A program made the translations under genes and the position numbers. Shown here one piece after another: positions 11,173 through 62,500 of a DNA stretch of 64,000 nt. The notes beneath the pieces were generated by a model. That model saw nothing but the letters and a program-made list of their open reading frames with translations, did not search any database and was not told the DNA's origin. Source of the DNA: Crambe crambe (taxonomy: Eukaryota; Porifera; Demospongiae; Poecilosclerida; Crambeidae); the NCBI GenBank assembly GCA_963924555.1, contig OZ004587.1, positions 8,448,075 through 8,512,074 of the forward strand, in the 5' to 3' direction. Each line of letters begins with the position of its first letter. The first letter of the stretch is position 1.

Positions 11173-11457
11173 CTCCTCCCCTCAGTGTGGAGAATGTAAT
11201 GGCAGTCCTGGAAGCACTACCATGGAGACGCGTTGGTCGTCAACTGTATGTCCCTAAGTCCAAACTTGATGCTATTGCATCAGAAAACTCTACAGATAGA
11301 CAGAGACTGGCAGCTGTCATCCGATACTGGATCCTGAGGGACCCATTTGCCTCCTGGAGGAGGCTTATACATTGGCTTGACTATTACGAAGATGATGACA
11401 GTGACAAGTGGCGTGATGTAGCAGACAGGATACGGAAGTATGCAGAGAAACAAACAG
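11173..11457 (+). CDS. Death-domain exon a of gene 1
   Basis: The exon encodes one six-helix DD (SVENVMAVLEALPWRRVG ... ASWRRLIH). Compared with gene 2 (28086) and gene 3 (59936), changes are confined to two patches. One is RQLYVPK before LDAIA. The other is the acidic loop after RLIH (WLDYYEDDDSDKW). Exon lengths are 285, 306 and 276 bases, all differing by multiples of three. Confidence 0.85.
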
Positions 11458-14400
11458 GTGAGTGAGTGTCATTGCTCAGATCAGATTATTGTTGCCCAAT
11501 GCACTGCACATACAGCAAGAAAGCCAAAACCTTGAATTGAATTATTAACTACTAACAGTGTATAGTGACAATAATCACTGAAAGGACAAAGGAGGTTCTA
11601 TTTCACAGACACTGCTTTCCATGTATGGAAATGAGGGGATCAAGCATTTAGCAATGTAGAAATTAGTATGAGTTCACTCTCCCCCTCCCAATATCACTGA
11701 GCAGCCTAATAGTTGTGTTGGTTGCATAGCAACAGCATAAACTCCTCACCCTCCCCTCCCACATTGATTGTTTTTGTCCAGTGCCCCGCCCTCTATTAAA
11801 AACCCTCCATGGTGCTTGACTAATACTGTGAATTGTGTGGGTGTGTCTTATCTGGGGTAATAGAAGTGTTTGTGTCCCCCCAGACCCCAGCCTCACCTCT
11901 TGCAGTTTGTTAGCTGCTCTGGACACTGTGAAGAATGCAAAGACTGTCAGTGACTATGATAATAATGATTTGGAGCGTGTATTTGAGATACCAATCCCTA
12001 AGTGGCAGGAGATGAGGTCACGATGTGTTGAAGAGGACACCTACCGTGGTGAACTGGTGCACTATTACCTCGGTACCCATCCACAAGCTAGTTGGAATCA
12101 CCTGGCCGGGACACTTCTCTACCGGAAACAACACAGCGCTCTCGAGAAAGTGAAGGGGAAGGTTAAAGCTGATAAAGGTAGGTGTGTGGTAGATGACACA
12201 TAATGACATACTAAGTGAGGGAAGGAAGACTGTAGTCATGTGATTGGTCTACAGTGGATCCTCCTATTAAGGACTCTCAGGTCTTCATTGACAGAAATTG
12301 TCAAGGGACACAAAATTTGAGTGTTGACACTGAATGTTTTCATAATAGCTCTGTGTGTAGCTATTGTTCAAGGGGGCAAGATTGTACCTGGACCCCCTCC
12401 AACTCATTAGAGTAGCAATTTCTGGTTGAAGGTCATTTGAGATTTCTGTATATTATAATGACTTGTGCTTTCAAAGTGCTTTGGTGCTTTTGCTACATAT
12501 GCCTTGTCATGGCATAAGCAGGAAACTTGATTGGTCCAACAATACAGTTTAAACTACATTAAGCATGCATGGCCAGTGGAAGTGGATTGGTGTGACTATC
12601 AGTCAGCAGGGGGAGGGGCTAGCATATGGAGGGCATTAATTAATGATTTAAAATCTGATATGTTAGAGCTATTCCCACTATAAATATTGTGGAAGTGAAT
12701 GCATACACTTGATGTTGTCGTTAGAGCATCAACTCTAGTTGACTGAAGTAATGCACACTGCATGAGCTCATACTATTTTTATTTGTTGTTGAAGGGACTT
12801 ATTTTTGTTGATTGGCTCATGTTTTATTCTTTATGTTCCCTCCCACAGACCCCTCCCTCACCCTCGCTAATCTCACTCAGCTGCTACAGGATGCGGGGGA
12901 TTGGTATCTTGTGGGTGAAAGTCTCTACATCCCCGACTTAGTGCTTGACAGTATTGAATCTCAACACTCCAGTCAGTCAGAATGTGTGAAGGCTTTGTGG
13001 GAGTGGTACCTGAACAACCACCCATGTCCATCATGGAGACATGTGGCTCATGCTCTATATGAGTGGAGGAAGCATGGAGTGCTGGAAGTGTTGAAGAGTC
13101 ACTACCTTAAAGGTGAGTCTTGTGGTCTGTGATGGTTTCTGGAACTGTAGCATCATTACATGTGAGCCTCATCTCCTCTCTCTCACTATCCTGACCTGCA
13201 GTGGTTCCAACAGTGATAATCACAGAGAGACTAGTTGGGAGTACATTGATTGTATGGGGAGGGGCATTAGGTTCAATGGGAAAATAGATTGAATACCTAT
13301 ATGAGTATTAACTTAGGTTTGCTGCCTCCCCAACATGGACCCTTGTTTATTTGTTTGTTTGTTTGTTTGTTTTTGTTTATTATATTATCTGCGATTCCTA
13401 GTGCATGTCCTCCCATCTCATAGAGTTGATCATCCAGGACTTCTGATATGTCTTTATTAGGAAGTCCACTCTAAAGTCGATTTGATATACCTCAAGAGTA
13501 AGGGGTGTGGGGACTCTCCTTGATTCAATTGATCTACTCCCCCTCAAATACATGTCTCCTGCATACCATACAGCACACCCCCACTTCTTAATTAAATCCC
13601 CTCTTAATATTCATATCTCTGTAGGTGAAATACCTGCTACAATCATGTGGTAATATTTTTGATTGTAGGTTCGTCTGAGTCACGTAGATTGTACAACGAG
13701 GCAATGAGGGAAGGATCCATCAGAGCTCAGATCAATAAAATCCTCCTCTATGGAGCTCCCGGGACAGGCAAGTCCAGCTCCATGGACCTTTTCGTTGGCA
13801 ACCCTCCGAGAGGAGTCAGAACGAGCACACCTCTCGCAGCTCGTCCAATCACTATGTTCCATGTTGGTGTCACCAGCGAGGAGTGGAAGAAACTTCCTCC
13901 AGAGGAAAGAAGACGAATTTTATCCAGAGCCATAGCTGCTCACTCTCCTCCTGATGCCACCCAGTCCCCCAAGGGTTCTGATTCTGCAGAGAGTTCTGAT
14001 TCTTGTGAGGATTCTGACTCTGGTGGTGAAATATCTACTGGAATGGAAGGTGGTATCAATCTTAAACATAGAGAAGCTCACACCGCAGAAGACAGATCTT
14101 CAACACACGATCGAAATCTTCGAGTACACCCAGTGTCTCTCTCCAGTCCAACAGCCGCTAGAAAACCAAAGCCAAAGAGAAAGAGCTCACTGCCATCCAT
14201 TACCACACACGACCAATTAATAAGGCTAATGGACGAGTGCTTGGAGTCAGATAAACCCCTATCTACCTTCCGTAAGCTCTACCTGATTGACTCTGGAGGG
14301 CAACCACAGTTCCACGAGGTGCTACCCATATTTCTTCGTCGAATGTCGTTGTATATTTTCGTCTTCAAGTTGTCGGAAGAGCTCGCCACTAAACCCATGG

Positions 14401-16151
14401 TGGAGTATTTCGATGGTAGTGGGAAGCGTGTGGGAACCCCTTACCGATCAGCCCAATCTAATGAGCAGCTGTTGAAACATTGTCTCCGCACCATGCATAC
14501 TCACAGATCTGACAGCAAGAGTGGAGGCGAGTGCTCCAGAATCATGATTGTGGGGACCCACAGGGACGAAGAACATAAGTGCACGAATGAATCACGACAA
14601 GAGAAGAATAAGAAGTTAGCGGATATATTGCTTCCAGCTTTCAAAGACGAAGTCATCTACTACAAGCAGAGTGAGTTGATCTTTCCAGTCAATGCCAAAG
14701 ATCCTGCAGAATTTGACAAAAGCATCGCAAAGAATGTCCAAGGTTTAGTCCTAGAAGAGTGTAAGCCTGTCTCTATAGATGTGCCTTTCAAATATTTCTC
14801 TTTGGAAATACTCCTAGAAGAAGTGAGCCTTTCTCTAGATAGAGGTGTACTGAGCAAAGAGGAGTGCCTTAGAGCAGCAAAAGATCTCTACTTTGATGAG
14901 CACTCTCTCGATGCGGCTCTCCAGTTTCTAGACGAGATTTCAGCAGTCTTCTATTTCCCCGAGATTCTGGAGGGTGTTGTATTCACCAACCCTCAGGTCC
15001 TCTTGGACAAAGTGACCGAGTTGGTGGAGAAAATTTTCTGCTTGAGGGAAAATATCGGTGGTGAGGCTATAGGATTAACTGGAAGCTGGCAGAAGTTCAA
15101 AGAGCACGGCATCGTTAGCTTAGAGCTTCTCCAAAGGGAAGAATTTAACAAGCATTACGTTCCTGAAATCTTTGCTCCAGTAGATCTGGTGAAGCTGTTC
15201 AAAGAGTTGCTTATTATAGCCGACTTTAGTGCTTCAGAGTACATCATGCCTGCCCTTCTTCCTGTCCTGGAAAAGGAGAAGGTTCGTGAGTATCGCGTGT
15301 CCAATGATTCCACTTTAGCTCCCCTTGCTCTGTCCTTCCCTCTTGGCGGGCCTCGTCTCGGCACCTACTGCAGTCTCACCTGTTTCTTAGTCTCCCGCGA
15401 CAACCAGTTTCCTTGTCCTTGGAAAATCGTGCTTCTTTCTAGTTCCAACACTCCAGCTTGCCTCAATCGTAACTGCACCATGTTTTCTGTTCCTGGCTAC
15501 CCTGGCTCCGTCACACTCATCGATACGTTCACACAATTCGAAGTACACGTGCACACCGCTGAGAAAGTGCGCAGCAAGATGTCTTCTTTTGTCTCCCGAG
15601 CCATATTTGCAGGTCTGAGGAAAGCAACACTGGTCCTTGGCTACAACAACTCCATTCCATCGAAAGCACTACTCTGTCCGTGTGATCATGATGGGAGTAA
15701 CCCTCATGTCGCCACGTTTGGAGATTGAATCTGGACCTGCAGTCGAAATCCAAATACATTTGGAGACCTCACTTCAATACAGCTGCCGTGGTGTGAACAA
15801 GAAGATCCTCTTCCTACAAATGGTATGTCTGTTTATACATAAAGTGTACATTACTATTTCATGTCAATTATTCTCTTGCATGCAGCACCACTGGACTTGA
15901 GGACAGTGCAATGTGCATTGTGGGATGCCAAATGCAAGTGGTATAACCTTGGTCTGGAGCTCGGTTTGGACAAACCAACTCTCGATGCAATCAAAGTTAA
16001 CTGTCAGGAAGTGGAGGACCGTTTCCGAGAAGTTCTTTCTAAATGGCTCGATTTAGTGACCCCATCATGGAAGGCACTGGTGAAGGCCCTGAGGGCACCC
16101 ACTGTGGACTTTCCTCATATAGCCTCCAAGATTGAAAGCAAGTATATTTGA
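11173..16151 (+). CDS. Gene 1: triple-DD / Roc-like GTPase / DD protein, with internal stop
   Basis: Exons are 11173-11457 (DDa), 11884-12177 (DDb), 12849-13112 (DDc), 13669-15822 (GTPase/COR-like) and 15886-16151 (terminal DD, stop TGA). All junctions are phase 1. The 5' start is uncertain; the exon at 8062 fits by phase. The product is a cytosolic signalling protein: DDs oligomerise with other DDs, and the Roc-like GTPase may act as a switch. It differs from gene 2 by a G-to-T change creating TGA at 15726-15728 (TFGD-stop). This removes the last 31 codons of the GTPase exon and the whole terminal DD, although both remain otherwise intact. The gene may make a truncated protein or be at an early pseudogene stage. 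Confidence 0.8.
11884..12177 (+). CDS. Death-domain exon b of gene 1
   Basis: This DD exon (DPSLTSCSLLAALDTV ... HPQASWNHLAG) is 294 bases. The copies in genes 2 and 3 are 282, an in-frame four-codon difference at NAKTVSDYDNNDLERV. The second variable patch is LLYRKQHSAL, against LLEWKQ and LLYWEE in the other genes. Confidence 0.85.
12849..13112 (+). CDS. Death-domain exon c of gene 1
   Basis: This DD exon (DPSLTLANLTQLLQDAGDW ... HPCPSWRHVAHAL) is 264 bases in all three genes. The segment DAGDWYLVGESLYIPDLVLD is heavily substituted between copies, whereas LTLANLTQLLQ and HPCPSWRHVAHAL are invariant. Confidence 0.85.
13340..13385. repeat. (GTTT)n microsatellite
   Basis: This TTTG/GTTT run lies in the intron before the GTPase exon. 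Its length differs in the homologous introns of gene 2 (about 30247-30290) and gene 3 (about 62073-62100). Confidence 0.85.
13669..15822 (+). CDS. Roc-like GTPase / COR-like exon of gene 1
   Basis: The exon starts in phase 1 (GSSESRRLYNEAMREG). G-motifs are the P-loop GAPGTGKSS (13752-13775), the switch-II-like DSGGQPQF (from 14289) and GTHRDE as the guanine-specificity motif (about 14553). The P-loop and switch II are separated by a long insert that is acidic and Ser-rich (GSDSAESSDSCEDSDSGG), then basic (KPKPKRKSS). The C-terminal half (FKYFSLEILLEEVSLSL, LDAALQFLDEISAVFYFPE) resembles the winged-helix start of COR domains in Roco/DAPK-type proteins. The frame is interrupted by TGA at 15726-15728. 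Confidence 0.8.
15886..16151 (+). CDS. Terminal death-domain exon of gene 1 (beyond the stop)
   Basis: Acceptor TGCATGCAG precedes a phase-1 DD exon (APLDLRTVQCALWDAKCKWY ... VTPSWKALVKAL) that ends with KIESKYI-stop. It is intact although an upstream TGA should prevent its translation. Gene 2 and the 48013 copy have homologous exons. Confidence 0.75.
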
Positions 16152-16282
16152 TCGAAACACTAGACCTTTCCCCCTAAACCCTGTTTCTATATTAGCAACT
16201 ATTTAATTCATTTTTAAATATTAAATTTTTAAGTTTATCGATATCTTTTGTCTTTGTGCAATGGCTTTATTTGAAAAAAAAT

Positions 16283-17689: not shown

Positions 17690-18372
17690 AACTTTGCCCC
17701 GAATCCAAGCCAGATCCAGATAAAGGGCGTGATCTTTCTTCTAAAGCAGTCATCCAACCAATGAACCTCGGAAGGCAGGAAGGAAAACCTCCCTCACTCT
17801 CCCTCCTGAGCACTCCCCACAGTGTAGGCCTGACAACTCCCCACAGTCAGTAGGCCTGACAACACTCCCCTCAGCAGCTAGCCAGTTCAGCTGAAGAAAA
17901 TTGCTCAGACCAACTGCCCTTAGGCCTACTCCACTGGCTTTGAGGATGGCAACCTGGTCCCCCTGCCAGCCACCCGTGGGTTACAGAAGGCCAGTGGCAC
18001 CATAGGAGCCCGTTTCTTCACCTTTCCATGTGAGTACTACACATCCTATGTATACATTAACTCCTTCCTTACCATCGATATAGCATTTTTCACTAGCATT
18101 ATAGCAGAATAACCCTTTCTTGTTGTCCCTATGGCTGGCCTGAAAAGTATTTATATTCTCATCCTCTTTGCACACTGAACAGGACTGTTAGGGAGAATTA
18201 TGAGGGTTGAAGCTTGGCTTGGACAAATCAACTCTCGATGCAATCAAAGTTCGAGAAGTTCTTACTAAATGGCTCGATTTAGCAACCCCATCATGGAAGG
18301 CACTGGTGAAGGCCTTGAAGACACTCTGTGGACTTTTCTCATTGAAAGCAAGTATATTTCATTGAAACACCC
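17690..18372 (+). pseudogene. Mosaic pseudo-block: proline-rich exon, Rab and DD fragments
   Basis: In order it contains a degenerate copy of the 8062 exon (about 17700-17820), Rab exon 1 fused to the end of exon 2 (17938-18031, joined at GGCCAGTGGCACCATAGGAG), the Rab exon 3 start (18178-18195), and a decayed terminal DD exon (18210-18345, LDAIK ... TPSWKALVKAL remnants). None keeps frame. It repeats at 42090-42715. Confidence 0.75.
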
Positions 18373-18478: not shown

Positions 18479-19556
18479 TCACCAAAAGTTTTGACAGTTG
18501 ATCAAATGAAGTGCTTCCCAATGCTCCACATGATTGAAGCGAGCTGAAAGGTCAGGATCATGACAATTAACAGCAGCAAGAGCAAAGAGCATGGAGACAT
18601 CCATAGAACCAATGCTATAAAATAAGAAAGAAAAATTGTTTTATTTTAAGCAAGCACTTAACAGGTTTATTGATCAGACACTTTGTATGTCATGCATAGT
18701 GATTATCAGCATTGCAATCTCAAAAGGCATCCTTAATTTGTAAGCAATTCTGGACTGATAAACATGCACCCATGCACCTTTACACTCGATCCCGCCACTT
18801 CAACCCCCACAATAATAAGGACGTCATAATTATGATAGGGTTATTCAAGATCACTATACTCTATGACATAACACTTCACATACCTCAGTCCATCTACAAT
18901 TTTGGGCAGTATTTCATTCATGTCTGCATCGTTTCCTTTCTCTAGCAAAGCCTCTGCCAACATCACACTTCTCGTTCAATGATCGACATCAGGCAGTCCT
19001 CCACATGTGAGACACTTCACAGAAAGTAAAGAATGACACAAATGAGTGTGCTTGGTTTCAACATAAAGTATATCATCTGGAGTAAAGTGTGCATCATTTA
19101 GAACCTAGTGTCACCTGTAAGGTGGGCATCATTTGAAGTAGTGTGCATTATTTGGAATCTGAACATGTTATAACAGGGGTCATGACTCACAAATTCTGGC
19201 GGCATTCTAATGGAGTGCATGTTCTTGACAGAGCTGAGCATTTGTTTGACACACTTTGAAGGCTGGACCAAACCTGAGCCACAAATGACATCACTGGTCT
19301 ACAGACTCTCGACTGCCACAACCTTCATTGTCCACGTATCAGTGTCTGCTACAATACCCACACCATGGTCCACTGGCTCGTCTAACGATAATTAATTATT
19401 AAAATTTAGAAAGATCCTGCTCTCCAATCACTTGTCATAAAGGCCTACCTTGACAGCATGAGCTAGGTCCTTGTAGAGTTTGTCCCAAAAACTCTGACCT
19501 GCACTTTCGGTGGTCCCATGTAGGACAAAGTCTGGTAAATAATGAGGAGAAACCCT
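18479..19556 (-). pseudogene. FNIP-like C-terminal exons, tail A
   Basis: Minus-strand exons resemble the C-terminus of folliculin-interacting proteins. They are 19554-19449 (PHYLPDFVLHGTTESAG ... KDLAHAVK), about 19395-19210 (DEPVDHGVGIVADTDTWT, then KQMLSSVKNM.SIRMPPEF), about 19000-18884 (MLAEALLEKGNDADMNEILP) and 18614-18479 (GSMDVSMLFALAAVNCHD, stop TGA). FNIPs bind folliculin in nutrient signalling. Here the second exon has a TAG after VAVESL, and the first half of the protein is missing. I read it as a truncated copy. The family call is moderate and rests on ADTD..T and the spacing of the blocks. Confidence 0.45.
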
Positions 19557-19606
19557 GAGGCAAAGAGAATTTATATTATGGATGATACACTATAATTCCA
19601 CTACAG

Positions 19607-19770
19607 TGGAGCCTCTGATATATAAAGGACACTACAAAAGAGGACAAACCTTTCAACAAAAAGACCATTGTATGCAAACTACATACAAAATAACCTCCAA
19701 AAGAGGACAACTTCTCTACAAAGGACAAAAGGATGGGTCCCAAGTGTGTGCATTATTAGGAGGTTTCACT
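19607..19770. mobile_element. MITE of the GGACA family (copy 6)
   Basis: This element lies between the FNIP-like and ATOS-like exons of tail A. Tail B has the same insertion at 43716-43880, so insertion preceded duplication. Confidence 0.75.
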
Positions 19771-19796
19771 ATATCATAATTCTTTAGGAAACTTGT

Positions 19797-20009
19797 CCCA
19801 CAAAGAGAGAGCCAATACTACTGCTGGTACTGATGGCTCTGGTGGTGATGGTGGAGGGACTGTACCATGAAGAGCCAAGTTGTGTGGGCTGGAGAGGGTT
19901 TTCTGACGTAGGAATGTCTGTGTGAGAGGGGGCATATCTGAGAAGTTGTAGGTGACTATGTAGATCTTGACCACCATGTGGTTAGGATTAAATTGTAGGA
20001 ACACACTTT
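19797..20009 (-). CDS. ATOS/FAM214-like exon with SDMPP motif, tail A
   Basis: On the minus strand this exon encodes FLQFNPNHMVVKIYIVTYNF followed by SDMPPLTQTFLRQKT, a signature I recognise from the atossa/FAM214 family C-terminal domain. A Pro-rich end (TVPPPSPPEPSVPAV) follows. Atos proteins act in transcriptional or metabolic regulation in the nucleus. It is probably part of the same gene as the exons at 20075-20225 and 21292-21453. The gene appears internally duplicated and perhaps non-functional. Confidence 0.55.
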
Positions 20010-20074
20010 ACAATGGGGACAGTATTGTATAAGACCCCTGACACTTAATCCTCAGCTTAAGAGACATTCCTTAC

Positions 20075-20225
20075 CAGATAGGGTGAGGTTCCTCCATGAT
20101 TATCATCCAGACTATAGAATGCAGCATTGACAGGCAAGACAAGATGAGGACCCACTAGCCGCCACCTCCACAGTGAAACCCTCAACCTGTCCACATGGCT
20201 CAAGACGTCCACTCAACACTGACTT
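20075..20225 (-). pseudogene. ATOS-like RLEPCGQVEGF exon, frameshifted copy
   Basis: This copy is homologous to the 162-base exon at 21292-21453 but 151 bases long. An 11-base deletion after the GCAAGACAAGATGAGG segment breaks the frame. The donor GTAAGG is retained. Confidence 0.65.
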
Positions 20226-21291
20226 CTGCATTGTATGCATGTAAAGGTACATCATTAATGATCATCCTAAACTATATTCTAAATAACCCCCACCTTCACT
20301 GCATTGAAATCTAGTATACTAAGGTGTGCGTTATTTGTGAATAACAAATACTTGCCTCAAAAGTTCCAAGCAGACATAGACTAGGGACAAACACAGGAGC
20401 TGAGTTACAGCGCTGTGGGGGGACTCTCGTCCGTGGTCTCTGTAATGAATAATCTTATGGTTTCACAGTACAGAATTGATCTCCCTGACTGACCCACTGA
20501 CCCACTGAGTGAGAGTGACTTACCTTGCATGCAAGTAATAGCACAGGATCTGCGTTTCCTTCAGGGCACACACCCTATACACAAGCTGGAATGGGAGAGG
20601 AGTCAAGGAGGAATGACAGGCAGTCCCTCTTACTTCCTGTCATGAGCGTATCTGAGAGGAGAGCAGATTGCTTGGAGCAGCAATTGTGGAGAAGAGGGCA
20701 CAGAGGAGAGGAGCTCTACAAGAAACAAGAACTGTATTCAACTGTGATCCATTAACAAGGATCTTTAGTGTCCAATATCATTAATAAAAGACACTGAAAG
20801 ATATCACTAGCTGGAGTCTTCCTGGCACACCTTTAGCCACCTACTGATATTGATGGAAAATCATTTTCAAATTCATCATTCCCTATTAATGCCCACCCTG
20901 CTACATTCCAACAACAAAGTTGGTGGTCATCATGATGGTCAAACTTCCTTCACCTGACCTCTGACCTCAATGCACAAAGGAAGACCTAGGCTCCATAAAG
21001 AGCAGATAAGAGATGGCAGAGTCTGTAAAGACAGTTCGAGGTACAAAATATATTACAGTGCAGTCATGACTTGATTTTAGTGTATCACAGATGTGTTATC
21101 CTAGCAGCTATGCCCAGAGGTCAAAGGTATATGGGGTATTAAAGGCCTCCTAAGTATGTGGTATAGTTTTAACCATAGGTCATGTCAAGTCTTCCGGTAC
21201 TAAGTACGAAACCTCTCAAAGAGAGCTCTCTTTTGAGGGGTAGTATGATCAGAAATGGACGTATATATCAACCTTAAGAGACATTCCTTAC

Positions 21292-21453
21292 CAGAGAGGG
21301 TGAGGTTTTTCCATGATTATCATCCAGACTATAGAATGCAGCATTGACAGGCAAGACAAGATGATGAGGACAAAAGGACCCACTAGCCGCCACCTCCACA
21401 GTGAAACCCTCAACCTGTCCACATGGCTCAAGACGTCCATTCAACACTGACTC
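21292..21453 (-). CDS. ATOS-like exon (SVLNGRLEPCGQVEGF), tail A
   Basis: The exon is 162 bases, phase 0 to phase 0. It reads ESVLNGRLEPCGQVEGFTVE and then SGSFCPHHLVLPVNAAFYSL. This matches the conserved ATOS/FAM214 block in which a LNGRLEP..VEGF..E..ASG.FCP..LPV pattern is diagnostic. Good donor GTAAGG. Intact copies lie at 44184-44345 and 45392-45553, and broken ones at 20075-20225 and 49995-50125. Confidence 0.6.
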
Positions 21454-21862
21454 CTTCATCGTATGCATGTAAAGGTACATCATTAATGATCATATTCTAA
21501 ATAACACCCACCTCCATTCCATTGAAATCTAGTAAACTAAGGTGGGCATTATTTGTGAATAACAATCTGGTTCAATACATTACTTGAAACAACAAATACT
21601 TGCCTCCGAAGTTCCAAGCAGACATAGACTATGGATGCACCTTCACTGCATTGAAATCTAGTATACTAAGGTGTGCGTTATTTGTGAATAACAAATACTT
21701 GCCTCAAAAGTTCCAAGCAGACAGACTAGAGATGAACACAGGAGCTGAGTTACAGCGCTGTTGGGAAACTCTCGTCCGTGGTCTCTGTAATGAATAATCT
21801 TATGGTTTCACAGTACAGAATTGATCTCCCTGACTGACCCACTGAGTGAGAGTGACTTACCT

Positions 21863-22103
21863 TACAAGTAATGGCACAAGATCTGCGTTTCACTCCTCCC
21901 TTCACTCCACCTGCATGCATGTAGGAAGAAGGGACAGGACTGTTAGCAGTGGGGGGAACCACACCAGTTTGTCTACCAGATGAGTTTACAGGTGGAGGAA
22001 CCAGACTTGCCTGTTCACTAGACCAGTTCACAACACCTGTTGCTGAGTCAGCAGCTACTCTAGAGGGTGAGATGACTTTAGAGTCTAAATGAAATGCCTC
22101 CAA
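21863..22103 (-). CDS. Exon upstream of the ATOS-like block, tail A
   Basis: This open exon encodes FHLDSKVISPSRVAADSATG ... TGVVPPTANSPVPSS ... KRRSCAITCK and ends at a GTAAGT donor. It is Ser/Pro/Val-rich, as expected of the disordered part of ATOS proteins. I do not recognise it on its own. A nearly identical copy lies at 45951-46191. Confidence 0.4.
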
Positions 22104-22109
22104 CTCCTT

Positions 22110-23028
22110 CTCTAATGAACTGACAGAATGGGAGAGGAGTCAAGGCGGAACGACAGGTGGTCCCTCCTACTTCCTGCCATGAGGGTATCTGAGAGAAGTG
22201 GAGGCGTGAGAGTGGATTGCTTGGAGCGACAATTGTGGAGAAGAGGGGGCAGAGGAGAGAGGAGCTCTGCAAGGAACAAGAACTCTATTCAAGTGTGAAT
22301 CATTAACACGAAGTTGCCAATATCATTAATAAAAAAGACCCTCTATAGACACTGAAAGATAATACCAGCTGGTTCATTTCCAATTCACTATTAATGCCCA
22401 CCCAACTCTTGGCAACAAGTTGTATACCCCATCGTTCCAGCAATGAATTTGTTGGCTCATCATGAGATGGACATGCTTCCTTCATCTGACCTCTGACCTC
22501 AATGCACACAAGAAGACCTTGACTCAATAAAGAGTGGTAGGATAAGAGATATAAAGTCTGCAATACAGTTCAAAGTACAGAAAGTTCAAAGTACAGAAAT
22601 CATGAAAGAGATTTCGAGTAGATGTGCTATCCTCTTCGTGGAAGGTTTTCAAATGGTTGTACCCCCACACTACAAAAGCTAACCTCGTATCTAGACCTAT
22701 TTGTGTGTACCTCTCCCCCTCCTCCTACTTTACACATTCTGCATACATTGTTCACATCTCACAGTCCTAATGATAGTTTCATCCAGCCAATCCAGTCATG
22801 AAAGAGGTTCCAGCTAGATCCACATTGGGCATGGGTGGCTTCCTCGATCGTGCAAGTAGTAGAGTTTGCACACGCACACGTACACTGAATCACTGTAGCC
22901 TAGCCTAGACTGTACTACTGTACCCAAGCGATCATTACCTCATGATGATGCGCAGCGCAGGGCGCCGGGTACCGCGTGGGGCCCGCGAACGGAGTTTGTT
23001 TGTGATCCATGTTTTGATCTTCAGGAGG
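22110..23028. other. Intergenic region before gene 2
   Basis: No convincing gene. The stretch is nearly identical to 46200-47060 up to about 22940 and then unique. It should hold the promoter and 5' untranslated exon of gene 2. A splice acceptor TTCAG lies at about 23020-23024, just before the start codon. Confidence 0.5.
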
Positions 23029-23230: not shown

Positions 23231-25474
23231 GTATGCCAGTATGGTACCAAAAATGGGGTAATTCCAAACAATTCAAACTACTGAGACTTCTGAGTTTAAA
23301 GTCAAAGGTTCCCAAATTCATATATGAGGGGCCCAAGTTAAATTAGAACTGTTTATGGAAGTGTAAGTGCAAATAAACAACCACAGGAAATGTCTCTTGA
23401 CATCAAACTACTCTCTTGCCATTAAACTGTTTGGGTTCACTTTCCACTTATAAAATCACCAACCAATTTTAAAATTTCAAGCACAGGCAGACATCTATTT
23501 ATGCGGGATTTATGATAGTACTTTTTATAATGCAAATGGTAAAAAAAAATGATAGGGATGACGAAAAAGTAAGGAAAGAAGGGTAGGGAATGGGATTATA
23601 TATCCAGCCAACAATCCCTATATTACTGCACTATAAAATCTGAGGCTACCCGACGTATATAGTTAGCTATCAGCTTCTTCTTCTTTTTTTCTTCCTTTTA
23701 TTTAGTGTTATTCTCACAAGGAATTTAGTACACCTGCTTGAATAAACCATGGCTGTCAAGTGTTCAAAAGCCCCTAAACCATGATAATAGTTCTTATGTA
23801 AACTTACTTCACCACCAGGTGAAAAGCATGTCAGAATATAATAACAGTCACTTCCTCCTTGCACATAATGAGTTTTAATAGCCTCCTACCCAGGCCCACT
23901 TTCTTTCATGGGGCAGAGGGAAAGTGGAAGGGTTGATCTTATATTATTATTATATAAAGAAACACAACAAAAGTCAATTTTAGAAATTGTGTTAGTGAGA
24001 TTTCTAAACATTCTTCCCTCTTCTGTGTAGATCTAGTTTTCACTATAGAGTAAGGGTAGAAGAGAAAGAAGAATTTATGCAGTCTTTTGACCTTTGACCC
24101 ACCATCTTAGTGTTAACATACTCTCTGATTAGTACATTTGTCTCTTTCCAAGTACAGGTAGTCTTTCTTGAAGTAGAAAAAAATTAATTTTGTGTGTACT
24201 ATATGATTATTCCTGCTGTGTGTGTAGGTGAAGTCCTGAGGTACGAGCTTTATTTGAACTTCTTGCTGACTATATTGTGGTGGAAGCTTGCAGTGACTGA
24301 ATCTGAAGGGACGACAAAGACTCGCTTTCGTAATGGCCCACATTGCTCGTGTACCATGTGCACTAATCATCCAAATGGCTGCACTATCAGAAGGGGAAAT
24401 ATTTCCATGGTGATACTACCTCTTAAAGACAACTGGAAGTGCTATCGCAGAAGAAGAGTTCTTCAGACTGTTCACTATTCTGATCATCAAGTGGTGACTT
24501 CCTTGCTATTGATATTGGGTGGTGATGTTGAAACTAACCCTGGTCCTGGTGAGTATTTAGTGGAGTCAAGCATATCGTCATGAAAGGGATCAGCTATCAA
24601 TTTTGCACATGCTCAGTAGCCAATAGTGACAATAAGCCAGTTTCTCAAGAGTTACTGCACTTAGGAGTGTGAATGGTCTTCTATCATTTGATTCTATAGT
24701 GCCAACCATGATGGACATCATCTGCTTTCCTTTGCAAGACTCTAAAGTGGACTTGACTAAAGAAGTTGGAATAAAGTACCTTCAGTTTGGGATTCTCCTT
24801 TTGGAAGACCAGACTGGAGCGCGTATCAGTGCCATGGAGAGAGAACTGGCGAAGAATTCACAAGACATTAACTACCGTGTGTTTCAAGAGTGGCTACAAG
24901 GGAATGGGAGAAAACCTGTGTCCTGGGAGACTCTGATTTCTGTGCTGGAAGATATTGGACTGAGCCAACTTGCTAAATCAATAAGAGGTAGATAATTTTT
25001 GAATTTGTTATCTCTTTGTTGGTGAATGTGGGGCTTGCTGGTTGCAAAGGTTCTCTGATTTTCCCTCAAGTGAGGCAGTTTCAAACTTTGAGACCGGAGT
25101 GCCTAGGGGTTGTGGGTAGACAACACATACCATAAATTGGGAAACTTAAATGGATGCAGCTATATGCTATTCTTGCATTATTTGACTGCAATTCCATAGA
25201 ACACTGTGATGCTAATTCAGAACAACCTCCAAAAGAACCTACTGCTGGTGAGTATGAAGTAGCTAGAAAATTTTCAAGGCTATACAAAAAGTATGTTTGC
25301 TTGTTACAAGAATAGTTTGATAATTTTTCAACTGCATTTTTTGTTCAGAACATGCTCTATCTGACCAGACTGATGTAAAGGATGGAGCTAGTACTAGTGA
25401 TTGGACCAATGAAGGTATGGTAACTATATGAGCTACCAGACACGACAATTAGTATTAGAATCAGTGCATGGTGG

Positions 25475-25516: not shown

Positions 25517-28500
25517 CCTCTAAGCAATTACGATTGGAGCTTGTGCATATGTTCGTTTCACCTTTGACCCCACAAATAAAACATGCCCACAACACTTGGC
25601 CATTTCCTCATAGAGGCCTAGGTAGATTATAGGTGCTTGGCTTTCTAAGTACTTGTGATAAGCATTATACAGCCTCTTGTGTATGCAGCTGCACCACCAC
25701 AGCAATACCTTAGGCTAAGGAATTGAAGTACAAATGATTTTCACCAACTGCTTCACTCGCCAATTGAATATGTTACACGAACATACCCTAGCTCACGCGC
25801 TACTATTGCACAACACGTACGTACCATCATACATATGCCTGGGGCATTTTGGAGTGTAGACCTAGATATATGAGTGCCAAAAATTTCTTCTAAATAAGTA
25901 GGTTAAGTCACTCCCTCCTAGCTATGGCAGTTGTAAATGTAGGGATTGTTTTCATACAAGGCTGCAGTACGTTATACAGCCCAGCTAGATTTTAGGCTAT
26001 CCCGGCTTAACCTACTTGTAAATACGAAAGTATGAAAGTCATTAAAAAGACAGCTACAGTGGGTGTCTATATTTCGAGGTATAAAAGTTTCACGGATATT
26101 TTTAAAAGCTGTCAATTTTACTTGTTTAATTAGAACTGATGACAAGTATTAACACAAGTTTGGAGCAATCAAGAGGAAAATCTGAAAGTGTAAGTTTTCC
26201 TTATCTCACTTTGTGGCTCCAATCATTCTTTCAGTCTCGATCCTCGTGGCATATTTTTTGCTGTTATTGATTGTGATAAAGAGCTCATTATTTTCAGTTT
26301 ATATGCACTAACCAGCAACTCCAGTTCCATTAATTAATCCAATTCGTCAAAAATATCTCTCATATGTAAAGATCATTATTGCTAAGCTATAGGTAAGTCC
26401 ACACTATCAGTTTTTGCACCAAACTATACTTCCTGCTGGACCTGGAGTCCATGTGTGTTATAGCTACCTTTAACCATTTGCCATTCACTGCATTTGCTTT
26501 CCTCCCCTTTCCCTCCCTATGCACAGACTATCACTACTTCTACTGAGAGAAAGAGTATCAGCAAACCAGATGATGAAGCAGATCGTGGTAAACTTTCTCA
26601 CAAGAAAAAGAGAGTCAAAAAATCAGGTGAGCTTTTTTAATTTTAATATCACAGCTAAAAGAATGAAAGGTACTGAAGTGCTGCTAACCCTCAGCACACA
26701 CTAAGAGTTCTTAGTGGCTGTATGTGTTTGGCAGATATTGAGCAGATCACCAATGGGTAGGAGGTTCATTAAATTGGCATGTGCATTCCATATTGTTGAG
26801 CAAGCTAGCATTCTCATTTTGAACCATCAGTGCCTGCTCAGATACAGATATCATACCATTAACAACTCTCTCCAGTCACCCAAAATGGCAAATATAGCTT
26901 GGTTCAGTGTGACAGTTAAGTGAGGCAAACAACCTTCCACTAGGCAGGCAAATAGCTAGGTATGGTCTAAAGAACCCATGGAATCTGATGAATACGTGAC
27001 AGTCGAGGGTAGAAATCAAACAGTATTCACACTTTCTAATTTTGAAAAAAAGTTATTGTTAAGCGATAAATTAGACTAAAATGTGAATTTCTACCCTCGA
27101 CTGTCACTATACAGGAGTTCTTGATTCTAATACCCGGCCATGGTAGAAGCAAATCTTAGCTATAGATACCCCCATGTGTTACTCTTTTGCATAAATTGAA
27201 TCCAAAAATCCATTCCCCAAAATGACACTTTGTGTGCAATGTGGTCATTCATATGACAGCATGAGTGTAGGTAAAGGGATCAAGCACACTAAAAATTGTG
27301 TTGTAGCCATTAGACTCAAACTCTGAAGTGACAGTTAGTATGCACTGAGTTATCTAATGTGTGACCTTGAAAGTGCAAGTCAAAATGGATGTGTCATGTA
27401 TACATAGACTGTTTCTTTCTTTGACCGTAGCCTTAGATGATTGCTAAGGCTGTAGTAACCACATTAGCTCCTAGTTAAGTTAGTCCATACATGTTCCTCT
27501 AATTATACTACTTTAGAGCAGAAACAAGTTGTCAAAGAAGAAATAGACATGGCTAAGTAAGTAGGCATGGTCAAATGTGCACCATTTTAGCTTGGGAAGA
27601 GTTTAACTCCACCCCCACCCCTTGATCCAGTCCTGAGTACTGTAGACACTTACTCTGTTACCTAAATGGTCCTGTGTAGCTACCACAACCATAATTATGT
27701 TGAGAAAATCTAACTGCCTCCCCTATTATGAACTTCTGGCTACAACCCTGTAGTTATGTGGCTCAGATGTCTGCCATCATGGTTGCTTCCTGTGATAAGC
27801 CCTGCCCATGCCACACCTATTGTAAGGGTGTATAAAAATATCTATCATAAAGTGTGATATTTAAGAGAATGTTTATTTATGGGTATGTCCCTGATGACGA
27901 TGTCTTAATTAGTTGTCAGAGACACACATGGTCCTTTGTGATTGTGATGGTCTATGTGGGTAGGTCTCAGGTGGTGTCTTAATTGGTGGTCAATGATACA
28001 TGATAGCTATATATGTGGGTATGTCCCTGGTGTTATCTTAATTAGTGTGTCATAGTATAGGTGTGTGATAATGTTTTATTTCCAGCTCCTCCCCTCAGTG
28101 TGGAGAACGTAATGGCAGTCCTGGAAGCACTACCATGGAGACGCGTTGGTGATGAACTGTATGTCCCTGACTCCAAACTTGATGCTATTGCATCAGAAAA
28201 CTCTACAGATAGACAGAGACTGGCAGCTGTCATCCGATACTGGATCCTGAGGGACCCGTATGCCTCCTGGAGGAGGCTTATACATAGACTTGACGATTAT
28301 ATCGATTTTTACAACAATGACGAAGATGATGACAGTAAAAAGTGGCATGATGTAGCAGACAGGATACGGAAGTATGCAGAGAAACAAACAGGTGAGTGAG
28401 TGTCATTGCTGAGATCAGATTATTGTTGCCCAATGCACTGCACATACAGCAAGAAAGCCAAAACCTTGAATTGAATTATTAACTACTAACAGTGTATAGT

Positions 28501-44183: not shown

Positions 44184-44345
44184 CAGATAGGGTGAGGTTC
44201 CTCCATGATTATCATCCAGACTATAGAATGCAGCATTGACAGGCAAGACAAGATGAGGGGAACAAAAGGACCCACTAGCCGCCACCTCCACAGTGAAACC
44301 CTCAACCTGTCCACATGGCTCAAGACGTCCATTCAACACTGACTC
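44184..44345 (-). CDS. ATOS-like exon, tail B copy 1
   Basis: Intact 162-base exon with acceptor TGATGCAG and donor GTAAGG. It reads SVLNGRLEPCGQVEGF ... SLDDNHGGTSPYL. It retains the SPYL ending that copy A (SPSL) has lost. Confidence 0.6.
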
Positions 44346-45391: not shown

Positions 45392-45553
45392 CAGATAGGG
45401 TGAGGTTCCTCCATGATTATCATCCAGACTATAGAATGCAGCATTGACAGGCAAGACAAGACGATGAGGACAAATGGACCCACTAGCTGCCACCTCCACA
45501 GTGAAACCCTCAACCTGTCCACATGGCTCAAGACGTCCATTCAACACTGACTC
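45392..45553 (-). CDS. ATOS-like exon, tail B copy 2
   Basis: Another intact 162-base copy in tandem with the one at 44184. Its acceptor has become GATGAAG rather than TGCAG. Confidence 0.6.
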
Positions 45554-47693: not shown

Positions 47694-48278
47694 AGAAAGT
47701 GCGCAGCAAGATGTCTACCTTTGTCTCCCAAGCCATATTTGCAGGTCTGAGGAAAGAAACACTGGTCCTTGGCTACAACTCCATTCCATCGAAAGCACTG
47801 CTCTGTCTGTGTGATCGTGATGGGAGTAACCCTCATGTTGCCACGTTTGGAGATGGTATCTGGACCTGCAGTCAAAATCCCAATGAAGTAGGATACCTCA
47901 CTTCAAGACAGCTGCCGTGATGTGAACAAGAAGATCCTCTTCCTATTAATGGTATGTCTGTCTATTCATAGTGTACATTGCTATCTCATGTCAATTGTTC
48001 TCTTGCATGCAGCACCACTGGACTTGAGGACAGTGCAAGGTACATTGTGGGATGCCAAATGCAAGTGGTATAACCTCGGTCTGGATTTCAGCTTAGACGA
48101 ATCATCTCTCGATGCAATCAAAGTCAATTGTCAGGAAGTGGAAGACCGTTTTGGAGAAATACTTTCGAAATGGCTCAAATCAGTGACCCCATCATGGAAG
48201 GCACTGGTGAAGGCCCTGAGGGCACCCACCATGGACCTTCCTCATATAGCCTCAAAGATTGAAAGCAAGTATATTTGA
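47694..48278 (+). pseudogene. 3' fragment of a fourth DD/GTPase gene
   Basis: The fragment begins abruptly within the GTPase/COR-like exon (KVRSKMSTFVSQAIFAGLRK). It has an in-frame TGA at 47918-47920 where gene 2 has Trp (LPW). It then has the normal donor and a terminal DD exon at 48013-48278 that is fully open. The terminal DD is the most divergent copy in the first variable patch (LDFSLDESSLDAIK against LELGLDKPTLDAIK in gene 2). Confidence 0.75.
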
Positions 48279-54400: not shown

Positions 54401-56513
54401 TGGAAATTTTAGGATACGTAACACGTCACAATATATTGGGCGGGGCCTTGTTTCTATGACGGCTAGTTACTTCTCCAGTTTCAGCTATGCCACCAATGTG
54501 GCTACCAGCGGCAATGATACTAATTTCTCTGACGCCGTCGCTTTCCAAGGCTTGGAGACGTTGGGCTTGCCTTATGTGGAGGAACAGAGCTTGGCCCATC
54601 AGGTCTGTCTACGAAGTATTTTTATGTCTGCCAACTGGTTTTGGGAAGAGCTAAGTTCTGCCGTTTGTAGTGGACCACCAGAACTTCCATTTGTCTCGGA
54701 AAGGTCTGGCCGCGCGAGATTAAGAGGTGGTAGCTAGCTGGGAAGAGAAGCGCAGTTCTTGCTCCAGATGGAGGATCAGGTGAGAGGATTGAGAAAGAAG
54801 TATGTGAAGGCCTCCATAGTCACCTCTTTAAAGTCTGAGTCTTGTTCCTGCGGCAAAGATCGAGTCATCAAATTAGCACCTCCCACTCTACGGCGTCATC
54901 TGCACACTATAATGATATTCATAGATGCTGGGATCACGCACGCGCAAGCAGTGGATACCAGGCCCTTATTTTAATAAGGCCTGGGTACGAGGCTATGGTT
55001 TGTAGTTGCCCCTCCTTAATTTTTTTCACTAGGCATTTGACCCCCCCCCCCCCCCCCCCCTTAAGTAAAATTCTGAATTAAACCCTGGTATTAGATACAG
55101 ATTCAAACTTCGGTTCATCTGACAGGGAGGACTGAGACCCTGTGAAAAGGATATGCCTTTGCATTTGCTCTGCTAACTGTCATAAAATTGACATAAACCC
55201 TGCATTGCTGCTGCCATATCCTATTTGGCTACACCTTGCAACGATGTAGGGCTTATGTCAATTTTATGACAGTTAGCAGAGCACAGTGACAAATGCAGTA
55301 CATGCAGCGATGTAGAGTTTGTCAATTCTGTGACAGCAAATGCAGTACATAGCCAGCACCTTGTTTAGTCATTTACTCCAGCCTACATCACTCTTTCATT
55401 TAGAAGAAATATTTTTACTCTCACTTATTTGCACACTTTTTTCAAGGGGCGCGGCTAAGAACGACCCTTTACCAAATAATCGTACCACACCCACCGCAAC
55501 TCAGCAAGGCAGTTTTTTTCTAACTAACTCTGTCTACCAAGTGTTCTAGCATTCTAGTGTTGTCTACGAAGTGTATAAACTAACTGTGCTGTCTACGAAG
55601 CATTCGAGAATTTGAGTTGTCCACGAAGGCACTCGAACGGCAATTGACAGTTAGGACTTGAGCTGTACTTCAATTTGAACAATACCATTCCTTAGATCAG
55701 GTGTAGAGCTTCAAGATGGTACCAAGATTGTAGATATAGGATGAAGCAGTCGGGAGTTATGGCTGTCAAGAAGAAGATTATTATTATTATTAATGAGCAT
55801 GGGTGTTTTGCATGTCAAGCCTACATAGAGAGTGCTACCGCACTCTCTGATTATGGTCACCTGTCAACTACATTACTTTCAGCCACTGTCTCTAGTAAGA
55901 ATAGTTTTTCTTGAACTAGTCATTCATTGTGTAATGAATTATCACTGAAACTTGTGAAAGTAGAATGGCACAGACTTATCCATGGTGTCTTCCAGCATCA
56001 AAGCTTTGTTACCTGTTTCTGTAATTCCTTTGTGTACAATATGATTATTCCTGCTGTGTGTGTAGGTGAAGTCCTGAGGTACGAGCTTTATTTGAACTTC
56101 TTGCTGACTATATTGTGGTGGAAGCTTGCAGTGACTGAATCTGAAGGGACGACAAAGACTCGCTTTCGTAATGGCCCACATTGCTCGTGTACCATGTGCA
56201 CTAATCATCCAAATGGCTGCACTATCAGAAGGGGAAATATTTCCACGGTGATACTACCTCTTAAAGACAACTGGAAGTGCTATCGCAGAAGAAGAGTTCT
56301 TCAGACTGTTCACTATTCTGATCATCAAGTGGTGACTTCCTTGCTATTGATATTGGGTGGTGATGTTGAAACTAACCCTGGTCCTGGTGAGTATTTATAG
56401 AACCTTTTTTCCATTTGATTTGGTTTGAGGCCTGTAGAGTTCCATAAATCACGTCGATATTTATTCAATTGAGCTTGTAGAAACAGTGGTATGTGGTCAA
56501 AGCACCAGGCAAT

Positions 56514-56584
<71 letters not shown>

Positions 56585-59500: not shown

Positions 59501-62500
59501 TACTCTGTTACCTAAATGGTCCTGTGTAGCTACCACAACCATAATTATGTTGAGAAAATCTAACTGCCTCCCCTATTATGAACTTCTGGCTACAACCCTG
59601 TAGTTATGTGGCTCAGATGTCTACCATCATGGTTGCTTCCTGTGATAAGCCCTGCCCATGCCACACCTATTGTAAGGGTGTATAAAAATATCTATCATAA
59701 AGTGTGATATTTAAGAGAATGTTTATTTATGGGTATGTCCCTGATGACGATGTCTTAATTAGTTGTCAGAGACACACATGGTCCTTTGTGATTGTGATGG
59801 TCTATGTGGGTAGGTCTCAGGTGGTGTCTTAATTGGTGGTCAATGATACATGATAGCTATATATGTGGGTATGTCCCTGGTGTTATCTTAATTAGTGTGT
59901 CATAGTATAGGTGTGTGATGATGTTTTATTTCCAGCTCCTCCCCTCAGTGTGGAGAATGTAATGGCAGTCCTGGAAGCACTACCATGGAGAGGCGTTGGT
60001 GTTATACTGTATGTCCCTGACTCCAAACTTGATGCTATTGCATCAGAAAACTCTACAGATAGACAGAGACTGGCAGCTGTCATCCGATACTGGATCCTGA
60101 GGGACCCATTTGCTTCCTGGAGGAGGCTTATACATAGACTTGACTATTCTTACGATGACAAGTGGCGTGATGTAGCAGACAGGATACGGAAGTATGCAGA
60201 GAAACAAACAGGTGAGTGAGTGTCATTGCTCTATTGTTGCCCAATGCACTGCACATACAGCAAGAAAGCCAAAACCTTGAATTGAATTATTAACTACTAA
60301 CAGTGTATAGTGACAATAATCACTGAAAGGACAAAGGAGGTTCTATTTCACAGACACTGCTTTCCATGTATGGAAATGAGGGGATCAAGCATTTAGCAAT
60401 GTAGAAATAAGTATGAGTTCACTCTCCCCCCTCCCAATATCACTGAGCAGCCTAATAGTTGTGTTGGTTGCATAGCAACAGCATAAACTCCTCACCCTCC
60501 CCTCCCACATTGATTGTTTTTGTCCAGTGCCCCGCCTCTATTAAAAACCCTCCATTGTGCTTGACTAATACTGTGAATTGTGTGGGTGTGTCTTATCTGG
60601 GGTAATAGAAGTGTTTGTGTCCCCCCAGACCCCAGCCTCACCTCTCGCAGTTTGTTAGCTGCTCTGGACACTGTAAAGAGTGTAAAGATTGACAGTGATG
60701 ACTTGGAGTATGTACTTGAGATACCATCCCCTAAGCGGGAGGAGATGAGCACACGATGTGTTGAAGAGGACACCTACCGTGGTGAACTGGTGCACTATTA
60801 CCTCGGTACCCATCCACAAGCTAGTTGGAATCACCTTGCCGGGACACTTCTCTACTGGGAAGAACACAGCGCTCTCGAGAAAGTGAAGGGGAAGGTTAAA
60901 GCTGATAAAGGTAGGTGTGTGGTAGATGACACATAATGACATACTAAGTGAGGGAAGGAAGACTGTAGTCATGTGATTGGTCTACAGTGGATCCTCCTAT
61001 TAAGGACTCTCAGGTCTTCACTGACAGAAATTGTCAAGGGACACAAAATTTGAGTGTTGACACTGAATGTTTTCATAATAGCTCTGTGTGTAGCTATTGT
61101 TCAAGGGGGCAAGATTGTACCTGGACCCCCTCCAACTCATTAGAGTAGCAATTTCTGGTTGAAGGTCATTTGAGATTTCTGTATAATGACTTGTGCTTTC
61201 AAAGTGCTTTGGTGCTTTTGCTACATATGCCTTGTCATGGCATAAGCAGGAAACTTGATTGGTCCAACAATACAGTTTAAACTACATTAAGCATGCATGG
61301 CCAGTGGAAGTGGATTGGTGTGACTATCAGTCAGCAGGGGGAGGGGCTAGCATATGGAGGGCATTAATTAATGATTTAAAATCTGATATGTTAGAGCTAT
61401 TCCCACTATAAATATTGTGGAAGTGAATGCATACACTTGATGTTGTCGTTAGAGCATCAACTCTAGTTGACTGAAGTAATGCACACTGCATGAGCTCATA
61501 CTATTTTTATTTGTTGTTGAAGGGACTTATTTTTGTTGCTTGGCTCATGTTTTATTCTTTATGTTCCCTCCCACAGACCCCTCCCTCACCCTCGCTAATC
61601 TCACTCAGCTGCTACAGGATATGAGGGATTGGGTTGGTGTGGGTGATGATCTCAACATCCCCATCTCAGTGCTTAACAGTATTAAATCTCGACACTCCAG
61701 TCAGTCAGAACGTGTGAAGGCTTTGGGGGAGTGGTACCTGAACAACCACCCATGTCCATCATGGAGACATGTGGCTCATGCTCTATATAGGCGGAAGAAG
61801 CATGGAGTGCTGGAAGTGTTGAAGAGTCACTACCTTAAAGGTGAGTCATGTGGTCTGTGATGGTTTCTGGAACTGTAACATCATTACATGTGAGCCTCAT
61901 CTCCTCTCTCTCACTATCCTGACCTGCAGTGGTTCCAACAGTGATAATCACAGAGAGACTAGTTGGGAGTACATTGATTGTATGGGGAGGGGCATTAGGT
62001 TCAATGGGAAAATAGATTGAATACCTATATGAGTATTAACTTAGGTTTGCTGCCTCCCCAACATGGACCCTTGTTTGTTTATTTGTTTGTTTTTGTTTAT
62101 TATATTATCTGGGATTCCTAGTGCATGTCCTCCCATCTCATAGAGTTGATCATCCAGGACTTCTGATATGTGTGTTTATTAGGAAGTCCACTCTAAAGTC
62201 GATTTGATATACCTCAAGAGTAAGGGGTGTGGGGACTCTCCTTGATCCAATTGATCTACTCCCCCTCAAATACATGTCTCCTGCATACCATACAGCACAC
62301 CCCCACTTCTTAATTAAATCCCCTCTTAATATTCATACCTCTGTAGGTGAAATACCTGCTACAATCATGTAGTGATATTTTTGATTGTAGGTTCGTCTGA
62401 GTCACGTAGATTGTACAACGAGGCAATGAAGGAAGGATCCATCAGAGCTCAGATCAATAAAATCCTCCTCTATGGAGCTCCCGGGACAGGCAAGTCCAGC

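Follow-up and report, generated by a model that had tools for sequence, protein, structure and literature searches.

Cell-death and immune signalling ordinarily rely on death domains (DDs) as conserved wiring. Three neighbouring genes of the sponge Crambe crambe raise the question of why the DD exons of near-identical copies should differ more than the introns between them. The genes, referred to here as genes 1, 2 and 3, lie on the plus strand of a 64,000-nucleotide stretch of DNA (hereafter the window; contig OZ004587.1, our C10, positions 8448075-8512074) in a 143-Mb genome with intron-bearing genes; other contigs are likewise given C labels. They have a common exon order, DDa, DDb, DDc, a large GTPase-like exon and DDd, and are recent copies of one DDa-DDb-DDc-Roc/COR-like GTPase-DDd gene. 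One face of DDa, DDb and DDc is under very strong diversifying positive selection, and helices H1 and H6, the H4-H5 loop and the GTPase exon are conserved. The copies belong to a hypervariable multigene family in which the death domain itself is the variable module.

Divergence of exons and introns among the three genes

In gene 1, DDa, DDb and DDc occupy positions 11173-11457, 11884-12177 and 12849-13112 of the window, followed by the large Roc/COR-like GTPase exon (13669-15822), with an in-frame TGA at 15726-15728 near its end, and by the terminal exon DDd (15886-16151). The corresponding exons of gene 2 lie at 28086-28391, 28817-29098, 29765-30028, 30601-32754 (Roc/COR-like and open) and 32818-33083. 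In gene 3, DDa to DDc are found at 59936-60211, 60629-60910 and 61577-61840; its Roc/COR-like exon (62391-64000) continues beyond the window end, and the rest of the gene was taken from adjoining stretches of the same genome.

Comparing genes 1 and 2, 1 and 3, and 2 and 3, in that order, divergence was 4.9, 5.0 and 5.8% in DDa, 7.1, 7.1 and 2.1% in DDb, and 8.7, 8.7 and 9.5% in DDc. The corresponding values were 0.9, 0.7 and 1.0% for intron A, 0.2, 0.3 and 0.5% for intron B, 0.6, 1.6 and 1.5% for intron C, and 2.2, 1.3 and 1.9% for the GTPase exon. The initial annotation of this locus, made from the sequence alone, had placed the replacements in exons and not in introns, and the ranges of 2.1-9.5% for DDa to DDc versus 0.2-1.6% for introns A to C bear this out. 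Non-coding DNA is not uniformly alike: the 1.2 kb upstream of DDa diverges by 3.7, 3.7 and 0.7%, and the 64-base intron D by 6.2, 0 and 6.2%.

Changes in DDa, DDb and DDc are concentrated in two patches and fall mostly on codon positions 1 and 2. In gene 1, the patches are located at approximately 11217-11267 and 11373-11408 in DDa, 11934-12020 and 12108-12137 in DDb, and 12893-12958 and 13058-13069 in DDc; for the comparisons of silent change and intron distance, patches were marked by eye from genes 1 to 3 and the wider copy alignment. Between genes 1 and 3, DDc shows 23 differences over 261 bases, with 13, 9 and 1 at codon positions 1, 2 and 3. The earlier hand counts for this pair proved exact, with 16 of 69 bases differing in the first patch (the best 69-base interval) and one difference in the 120 bases directly upstream of DDc. 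The two-patch layout proposed at the same time also recurs in copies on C10, C5, C8 and C21 and in a further subfamily, here called C15-type.

Gene 1 was also compared with copies c5a, c5c, c8 and c10f. Introns A (11458-11883) and B (12178-12848) diverge from these by 1.2-3.3%, and intron C (13113-13668) by 7.7-8.9%. The greater likeness of introns A and B than of intron C across chromosomes may reflect conversion of the DD cassette or constraint.

Positive selection in the codon models

A genome search with DDa gave at least 41 matches, with 40 of the 78 candidates scored. Seventeen loci were compared and eleven entered the codon models; c10e (frameshift in DDa), c17 (diverged, with the start of DDb unaligned), c10x (whose fetched stretch lacks the GTPase exon) and the distant copies c8b, c10y and c15 were left out. 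Site models were fitted with our own maximum-likelihood implementation, on a tree of the DDs and on a tree of the introns.

For DDa to DDc, model M0 gave an omega (the dN/dS ratio) of 2.03. Twice the log-likelihood difference (2dlnL) between M1a and M2a was 353 on the DD tree and 369 on the intron tree, with omega2 of 9.6 and 9.2 at 18% of codons; the values were 354 and 371 for M7 against M8, and 351 and 368 for M8a against M8. Data sets simulated under the fitted null (n = 12) reached at most 6.3. When each exon was analysed on its own tree, DDa, DDb and DDc gave 2dlnL of 112, 113 and 87. Under M0, omega was 0.33 for the GTPase exon (c5b left out) and 0.76 for DDd (c5b and c5d left out).

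Subsets of the copies were also analysed separately. The four C10 copies alone gave omega2 of 20 (2dlnL 111) and the six copies from C5, C8 and C21 gave 12 (2dlnL 203), c10f being in neither subset. These non-overlapping sets have 17 selected sites in common, of 30 and 26, respectively, with overlap p values of 0.0016, 2e-6 and 4e-6 per exon. In the C15-type subfamily, 12 distinct copies gave omega2 of 21.8 and 2dlnL of 99.6, with five selected sites in the same two patches. This set represents 12 of 16 loci and includes L028 on C8 and L042 on C1; L032 and L036, which equal L031 and L035, and L030 and L040, which belong to another subfamily, were dropped. The initial annotation had offered diversifying selection on an interaction surface as one explanation, to be examined by codon models on genomic copies and by mapping of sites on a DD model, and both came out as diversifying selection predicts.

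Assembly or alignment error, or relaxed constraint on pseudogenes, could in principle produce variable exons, and many copies do carry stops, while patch 2 of DDa varies in length and is difficult to align. However, relaxation predicts an omega of about 1 and we observed 8-22, the same positions vary across three modules and separate copy sets while the remainder of the exons is frozen, and DDc has an identical length in 9 of 13 copies. Considering omega far above 1, the recurrence across copy sets and the null simulations, we set this explanation aside as scarcely credible.

Sequences from a protein database extend the pattern. A search with DDc returned 74 proteins, 67 of them full-length; 44 form another subfamily and are all distinct, and the database may include the same animal as the window's genome. 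In these 44 proteins, entropy at the 11 selected DDc sites averaged 2.09 bits versus 0.33 bits elsewhere (p 3.8e-6). By structural element, mean entropy was 0.02 bits in H1, 0.92 in the H1-H2 loop, 1.88 in H2, 1.17 in H3, 0.48 in H3-H4, 0.39 in H4, 0.08 in H4-H5, 1.92 in H5-H6 and 0.14 in H6. The unselected DDc sites 33, 22 and 17 are also variable in this set.

Domain identity and predicted fold

The Pfam Death domain profile (PF00531, cut-off 22.6 bits) matched DDa at 26.8 bits, DDc at 25.5 bits and an extra DDd copy at 48015 at 23.1 bits. Scores below the cut-off were obtained for DDd of gene 2, within a large open reading frame (ORF) (15.6 bits), and for a probable upstream exon, DD0 (17.6 bits). 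DDb alone had no Pfam match; DDb and DDd were called death domains by alignment, in which DDb is 28-31% identical to DDc. Splice sites support the DDa exon of gene 1, and selected sites support DDa, DDb and DDc. AlphaFold (AF2) models, built from 12 window sequences, predict six helices each for DDc (predicted local distance difference test, pLDDT, 89.9) and DDa (90.2), and the best match of the DD profile among PDB sequences was FADD (E 3e-4).

The large exon contains P-loop, DSGGQ and THRD motifs, which we take to be of GTPase type. The Roc profile was matched at E 0.01 or better by 23 of 33 aligned proteins. No NACHT or LRR (leucine-rich repeat) was present among the matches from ten scanned stretches and the 33 aligned proteins, a scan that did not extend to upstream exons.

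Location of the selected sites

On the AF2 model of DDc, the selected residues are predicted at 19, 20 and 23 in H2, at 29, 30, 32 and 36 in H3, at 42, the first residue of H4, and at 71-73, covering the end of H5 and the H5-H6 loop. Ten of these 11 sites fall in the modelled H2-H3 region or the region from the end of H5 to the start of H6 (p 1.2e-5). As judged from the models, the selected sites lie mainly on H2, H3, the end of H5 and the H5-H6 loop, and H1, H6 and the H4-H5 loop are nearly frozen. H2 and H5 are adjacent in the DD fold; hence, the two patches could form one surface. The residues F, Y, D, Q, N and E are over-represented at selected sites.

The suggestion that the same relative positions vary in three different DD modules also held, as selected columns coincide among them. 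DDa and DDb have 4 in common, DDa and DDc 3, and DDb and DDc 7 (p 5e-4, 0.014 and 6e-6, respectively); a circular-shift control equalled the observed closeness 2, 6 and 4 times in 86.

In the excerpts of the structural literature consulted (PMC7156525, PMC7054835), DDs assemble through three interfaces: in type I, H1/H4 pairs with H2/H3; in type II, H4 and the H4-H5 loop pair with the H5-H6 loop and H6; and in type III, H3 pairs with the H1-H2 and H3-H4 loops. Types I and II each have the variable elements on one of their two halves, and in type III both sides vary somewhat. This arrangement bears on the possibility that each paralogue has acquired a private DD-DD interface that prevents cross-talk among parallel pathways. 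Such insulation would accord with selected sites on surfaces of the kind used in type I, II and III assembly and with variation on both sides of type III, in H3 and, less strongly, in the H1-H2 and H3-H4 loops. Re-coded DD-DD pairing, however, would be expected to alter the partner face too, unless the partner belongs to another family, and variation in types I and II is confined to one half (H1, H4 and H4-H5 against H2, H3 and H5-H6 in the entropies above). We therefore consider insulation improbable.

Silent change and mutational mechanisms

We compared silent and replacement change within the patches. The silent class comprises third-position changes within the purine or pyrimidine class, which are silent in nearly all codons; variable codons were picked by at least three residues, a choice that makes the comparison circular at positions 1 and 2 but leaves silent third positions unaffected. 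Among genes 1 to 3, 99 of 288 comparisons at positions 1 and 2 of the variable codons show a difference, against 4 of 134 at their silent-class third positions; outside these codons, 8 of 547 silent-class third positions in the exons differ. In 12 copies, the corresponding counts are 2622 of 6050, 192 of 2496 and 536 of 11195. Over both sets, change at positions 1 and 2 of variable codons is 0.34-0.43 per site.

Because third positions are largely spared, a process blind to coding is unlikely, and hypermutation and block conversion are disfavoured because silent change is low in the variable codons. Long-separated lineages, or blocks from diverged donors, would be expected to bring more silent differences. 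Both mechanisms were set aside on this ground, with the caveat of the C15-type third positions (below). Adenine-template mutagenesis, as by a diversity-generating retroelement (DGR), was rejected: the commonest third base varies among the 29 selected codons (T9, C8, A6, G6), and the third base is an invariant A at selected codons 79 of DDb and 32 and 38 of DDc. Adenine-specific changes of the DGR kind were not found, a result that covers base composition, a template repeat or reverse transcriptase being outside any search.

The broader proposal, in which targeted mutagenesis or cassette conversion generates the patch diversity, was the second explanation in the initial annotation. It could account for two sharply bounded patches across several exons and for the unusual likeness of introns A and B across chromosomes, and it would fit a DDc patch distance that does not follow intron A distance (rho -0.05, versus 0.40 for DDa and 0.35 for DDb), as well as the variation of third positions in the C15-type set. 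Against it stand the small silent change at third positions in the C10, C5, C8 and C21 set, the lack of adenine-template bias at selected codons, and the likeness of introns A to C adjoining the exons in genes 1 to 3. Targeted conversion is not needed for the C10, C5, C8 and C21 copies, while the C15-type third positions leave it some room; overall, we judge it very unlikely.

Terminal death domain, DD0 and the 2A-like leader

The initial annotation had extended the pattern to a terminal DD copy downstream of the end of a GTPase-exon copy (48015-48275, plus strand). Relative to DDd of gene 1, 8 of its 14 replacements do fall at patch-like positions, six resembling patch 1 and two patch 2, and the other six lie elsewhere. 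Changes at codon positions 1, 2 and 3 number 12, 1 and 13, and between DDd of genes 1 and 2 none of the four replacements is at a patch-like position. Because silent change is equally frequent, and given the 0 of 4 between genes 1 and 2, the terminal DD stands outside the replacement excess; the M0 omega, the silent change and the site positions leave the extension unsupported, and DDd is not hypervariable.

A 2A-like leader and a constant domain, DD0, probably lie ahead of some copies. Upstream of gene 2, on the plus strand, there is a probable 5′ leader exon (24391-24548), which ends in GGDVETNPGP immediately before a splice donor, and a probable DD0 exon (24739-24987); leader and DD0 lie approximately 3.1 kb upstream of DDa, and their link to gene 2 is putative. 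The D(V/I)ExNPGP-type motif near the presumed N-terminus makes this a candidate 2A/StopGo leader. Among the matches listed, the leader occurs near genes 2 and 3, c10d, c10e and c10f, and DD0 near gene 2, c10d and c10e; neither was listed near gene 1, nor DD0 upstream of gene 3. DD0 is not hypervariable, because its copies on C10, C5 and C21 are 95-100% identical. The leader exon has a second copy near 56229-56398, a third in locus L010 near 6515, and at least 40 matches in the genome, many of them on C8 at 0.60-1.09 Mb.

Size of the family and its relatives

The DDc query had at least 146 genome matches, with scores for 150 of 346 candidates; 37 were strong and lay on C11 at 1.59-3.83 Mb. With the COR-A profile, 149 of the 150 scored genome matches were above the cut-off. 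The ROCO-like expansion is very large, with runs of COR-A matches on C1, C3, C5, C8, C11 and others. Like the GTPase exon of gene 1 with its TGA, other copies are interrupted by stops or frameshifts.

Hypervariability is not general to the DDs of this genome, because an unrelated DD family on C16 (four of five loci fetched) shows the opposite pattern, with a conserved exon and diverged flanks. In the protein database, DDa proteins of contig 249861 equal those of genes 1, 2 and 3 and c10d and fit c10f, and none of nine listed DDa proteins of contig 600414 is identical to copies taken from the window's genome. Contig 600414 probably represents a second haplotype or individual.

Weight of the evidence

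Several observations weigh against strong selection on one face of functional receptors. The site models do not include recombination, although the DD and intron trees are concordant. There is a weaker M2a signal in the GTPase exon (2dlnL 9.0) and a moderate one in DDd (19.6), where selected sites lie mostly outside the patches. AF2 site mapping covers DDa and DDc, DDb being placed by alignment, and in the DDa model 4 of 7 mappable sites are predicted inside a strictly drawn face (p 0.13); sites 67, 76 and 77 of DDa are 1-2 residues outside it, and 5 of the 12 selected DDa columns are insertions not present in gene 1. Site 30 of DDc, though selected, is invariant in the 44 proteins, and in some sets the H1-H2 and H3-H4 loops vary too. 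In the sets examined, silent-class change in variable codons runs at 1.6-2.5 times its rate elsewhere in the exons and exceeds introns A and B by more. At the five selected C15-type codons, third positions vary as much (0.64) as positions 1 and 2 (0.62), in older copies whose intron flanks show a mean difference of 0.32-0.35. The Roc match in the window's own large exon is weak (E 0.0027, 18.4 bits versus a cut-off of 27), and COR-A has no match there and matches 3 of the 33 aligned proteins. Finally, the GTPase exon has a stop inside the matched stretch in 31 of 54 scored genome matches, some of which may be intron, and 5 of the 13 copies with all five exons contain a stop in at least one exon as read; because stops are frequent, much of the array may be inactive. 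The stops in GTPase matches and the C15-type third positions temper our confidence.

Proposed function

With these reservations, we regard it as likely that the genes form a large tandem and dispersed family of signalling proteins whose selected DD face binds a changing partner and thereby triggers defence or cell death. The recognition role of the variable face is suggested by the sequence pattern. The partner contacted by the variable face would most likely be an intracellular ligand of non-self or pathogen origin. Its binding would be relayed via the faces that stay conserved, the GTPase switch and constant DDs to an assembly whose formation sets off defence or cell death. Gene duplication and replacements fixed by selection would supply new specificities, and introns A and B and the remainder of the exons would stay similar since the copies are young, homogenised or both. 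The partner halves of the type I and II interfaces stay unchanged, which makes a foreign ligand likelier than another such DD evolving in step. The ligand question is directly testable, since the selection map names contact residues.

A more far-reaching form is a germline-diversified sponge repertoire of dozens of intracellular receptors, in which the DD itself, elsewhere a constant adaptor, is an antigen-binding-like variable module, three variable DDs are coupled to a GTPase switch and constant DDs, and haplotypes differ strongly; we put this forward tentatively, as rather doubtful. If true, it would add a previously undescribed class of recognition receptor, found in an early-branching animal. 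Such a repertoire of variable-DD receptors could possibly double as an individuality system. In a pure allorecognition system, variable DD faces would mark individuals for tissue fusion or rejection under frequency-dependent selection. The DDa contrast between contigs 600414 and 249861 would fit strong haplotype diversity, selection is extreme, and allo-incompatibility occurs in sponges (PMC8195603, in excerpt). Nevertheless, the assignment of contig 600414 to another haplotype is itself indirect, a large repertoire over several chromosomes resembles a receptor repertoire more than one polymorphic locus, and no transmembrane or extracellular part was found in the exons covered by the profile scan, which excludes those upstream. 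Allorecognition as the primary function is thus unlikely, and a ligand-binding defence family remains our preferred reading.

Other features of the window and genome

An ORF at 437-1291 of the window matches a reprolysin-type metallopeptidase, and another at 38991-40004, on the minus strand, a P-element-like transposase (TNP-like RNase H). Between the genes lie repeat blocks that are 97% identical (19384-22916 and 43493-47011; also 18204-18362 and 42547-42687), with short pieces resembling the terminal DD near them. An Rfam scan of the window gave 0 matches, and a phage collection gave no match. The mitochondrial contig C119 carries cox1 with nine in-frame TGA codons read as Trp and AGR read as Arg, and five tRNA genes within 4.3 kb. 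Use of genetic code 4 alongside several mitochondrial tRNAs fits a sponge.

Comparison with known systems

Among the entries listed in searches of the open-licence literature, we found no report of hypervariable or positively selected death domains or of a sponge ROCO expansion. A DD face at omega of roughly 8-22, with the remainder mostly frozen, in three modules per gene and on several chromosomes, points to an unrecognised DD recognition surface and, for an early-branching animal, a large candidate receptor repertoire.

FADD and other vertebrate death domains have the same six-helix fold. Vertebrate death-domain proteins are few-copy adaptors or receptors, not arrayed hypervariable paralogues. 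Animal ROCOs with death domains, such as DAPK1, are alike in combining a Roc/COR-like core with death domains; DAPK1 contains a kinase and ankyrin repeats. Placozoan ROCOs carry CARD or death domains, and the available part of that account mentions no hypervariable DD face for animal ROCOs (PMC11378527).

Two further animal systems show partial likeness. The Death-like and TRADD-N proteins of Amphimedon are a lineage-specific sponge expansion tied to immunity or cell death; in the excerpted description, the C-terminus is often the fast-evolving part (PMC8195603), whereas here it is the DD surface, and the core here is Roc/COR-like. Sea-urchin NLRs combine an N-terminal 2A-like leader, a death domain and a nucleotide-binding core, and their 2A-like leaders permit dual targeting (PMC4981915, in excerpt). 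Their architecture is NACHT plus LRR, unlike the Roc/COR-like one described here.

The closest published system that we found is the LRR-ROCO family of candidate immune receptors in brown algae. As excerpted (PMC11378527), it is likewise a large ROCO GTPase family with N-terminal binding modules on separate exons, and site models there detect positively selected sites on the face by which these modules presumably bind ligand. The algal receptors belong to another kingdom, and the Roc match in the window's own exon is weak. Theirs diversify LRRs with exon shuffling, and no LRR match occurred in the ten stretches scanned here; in the sponge family, the variable module is a death domain, present three times per gene.

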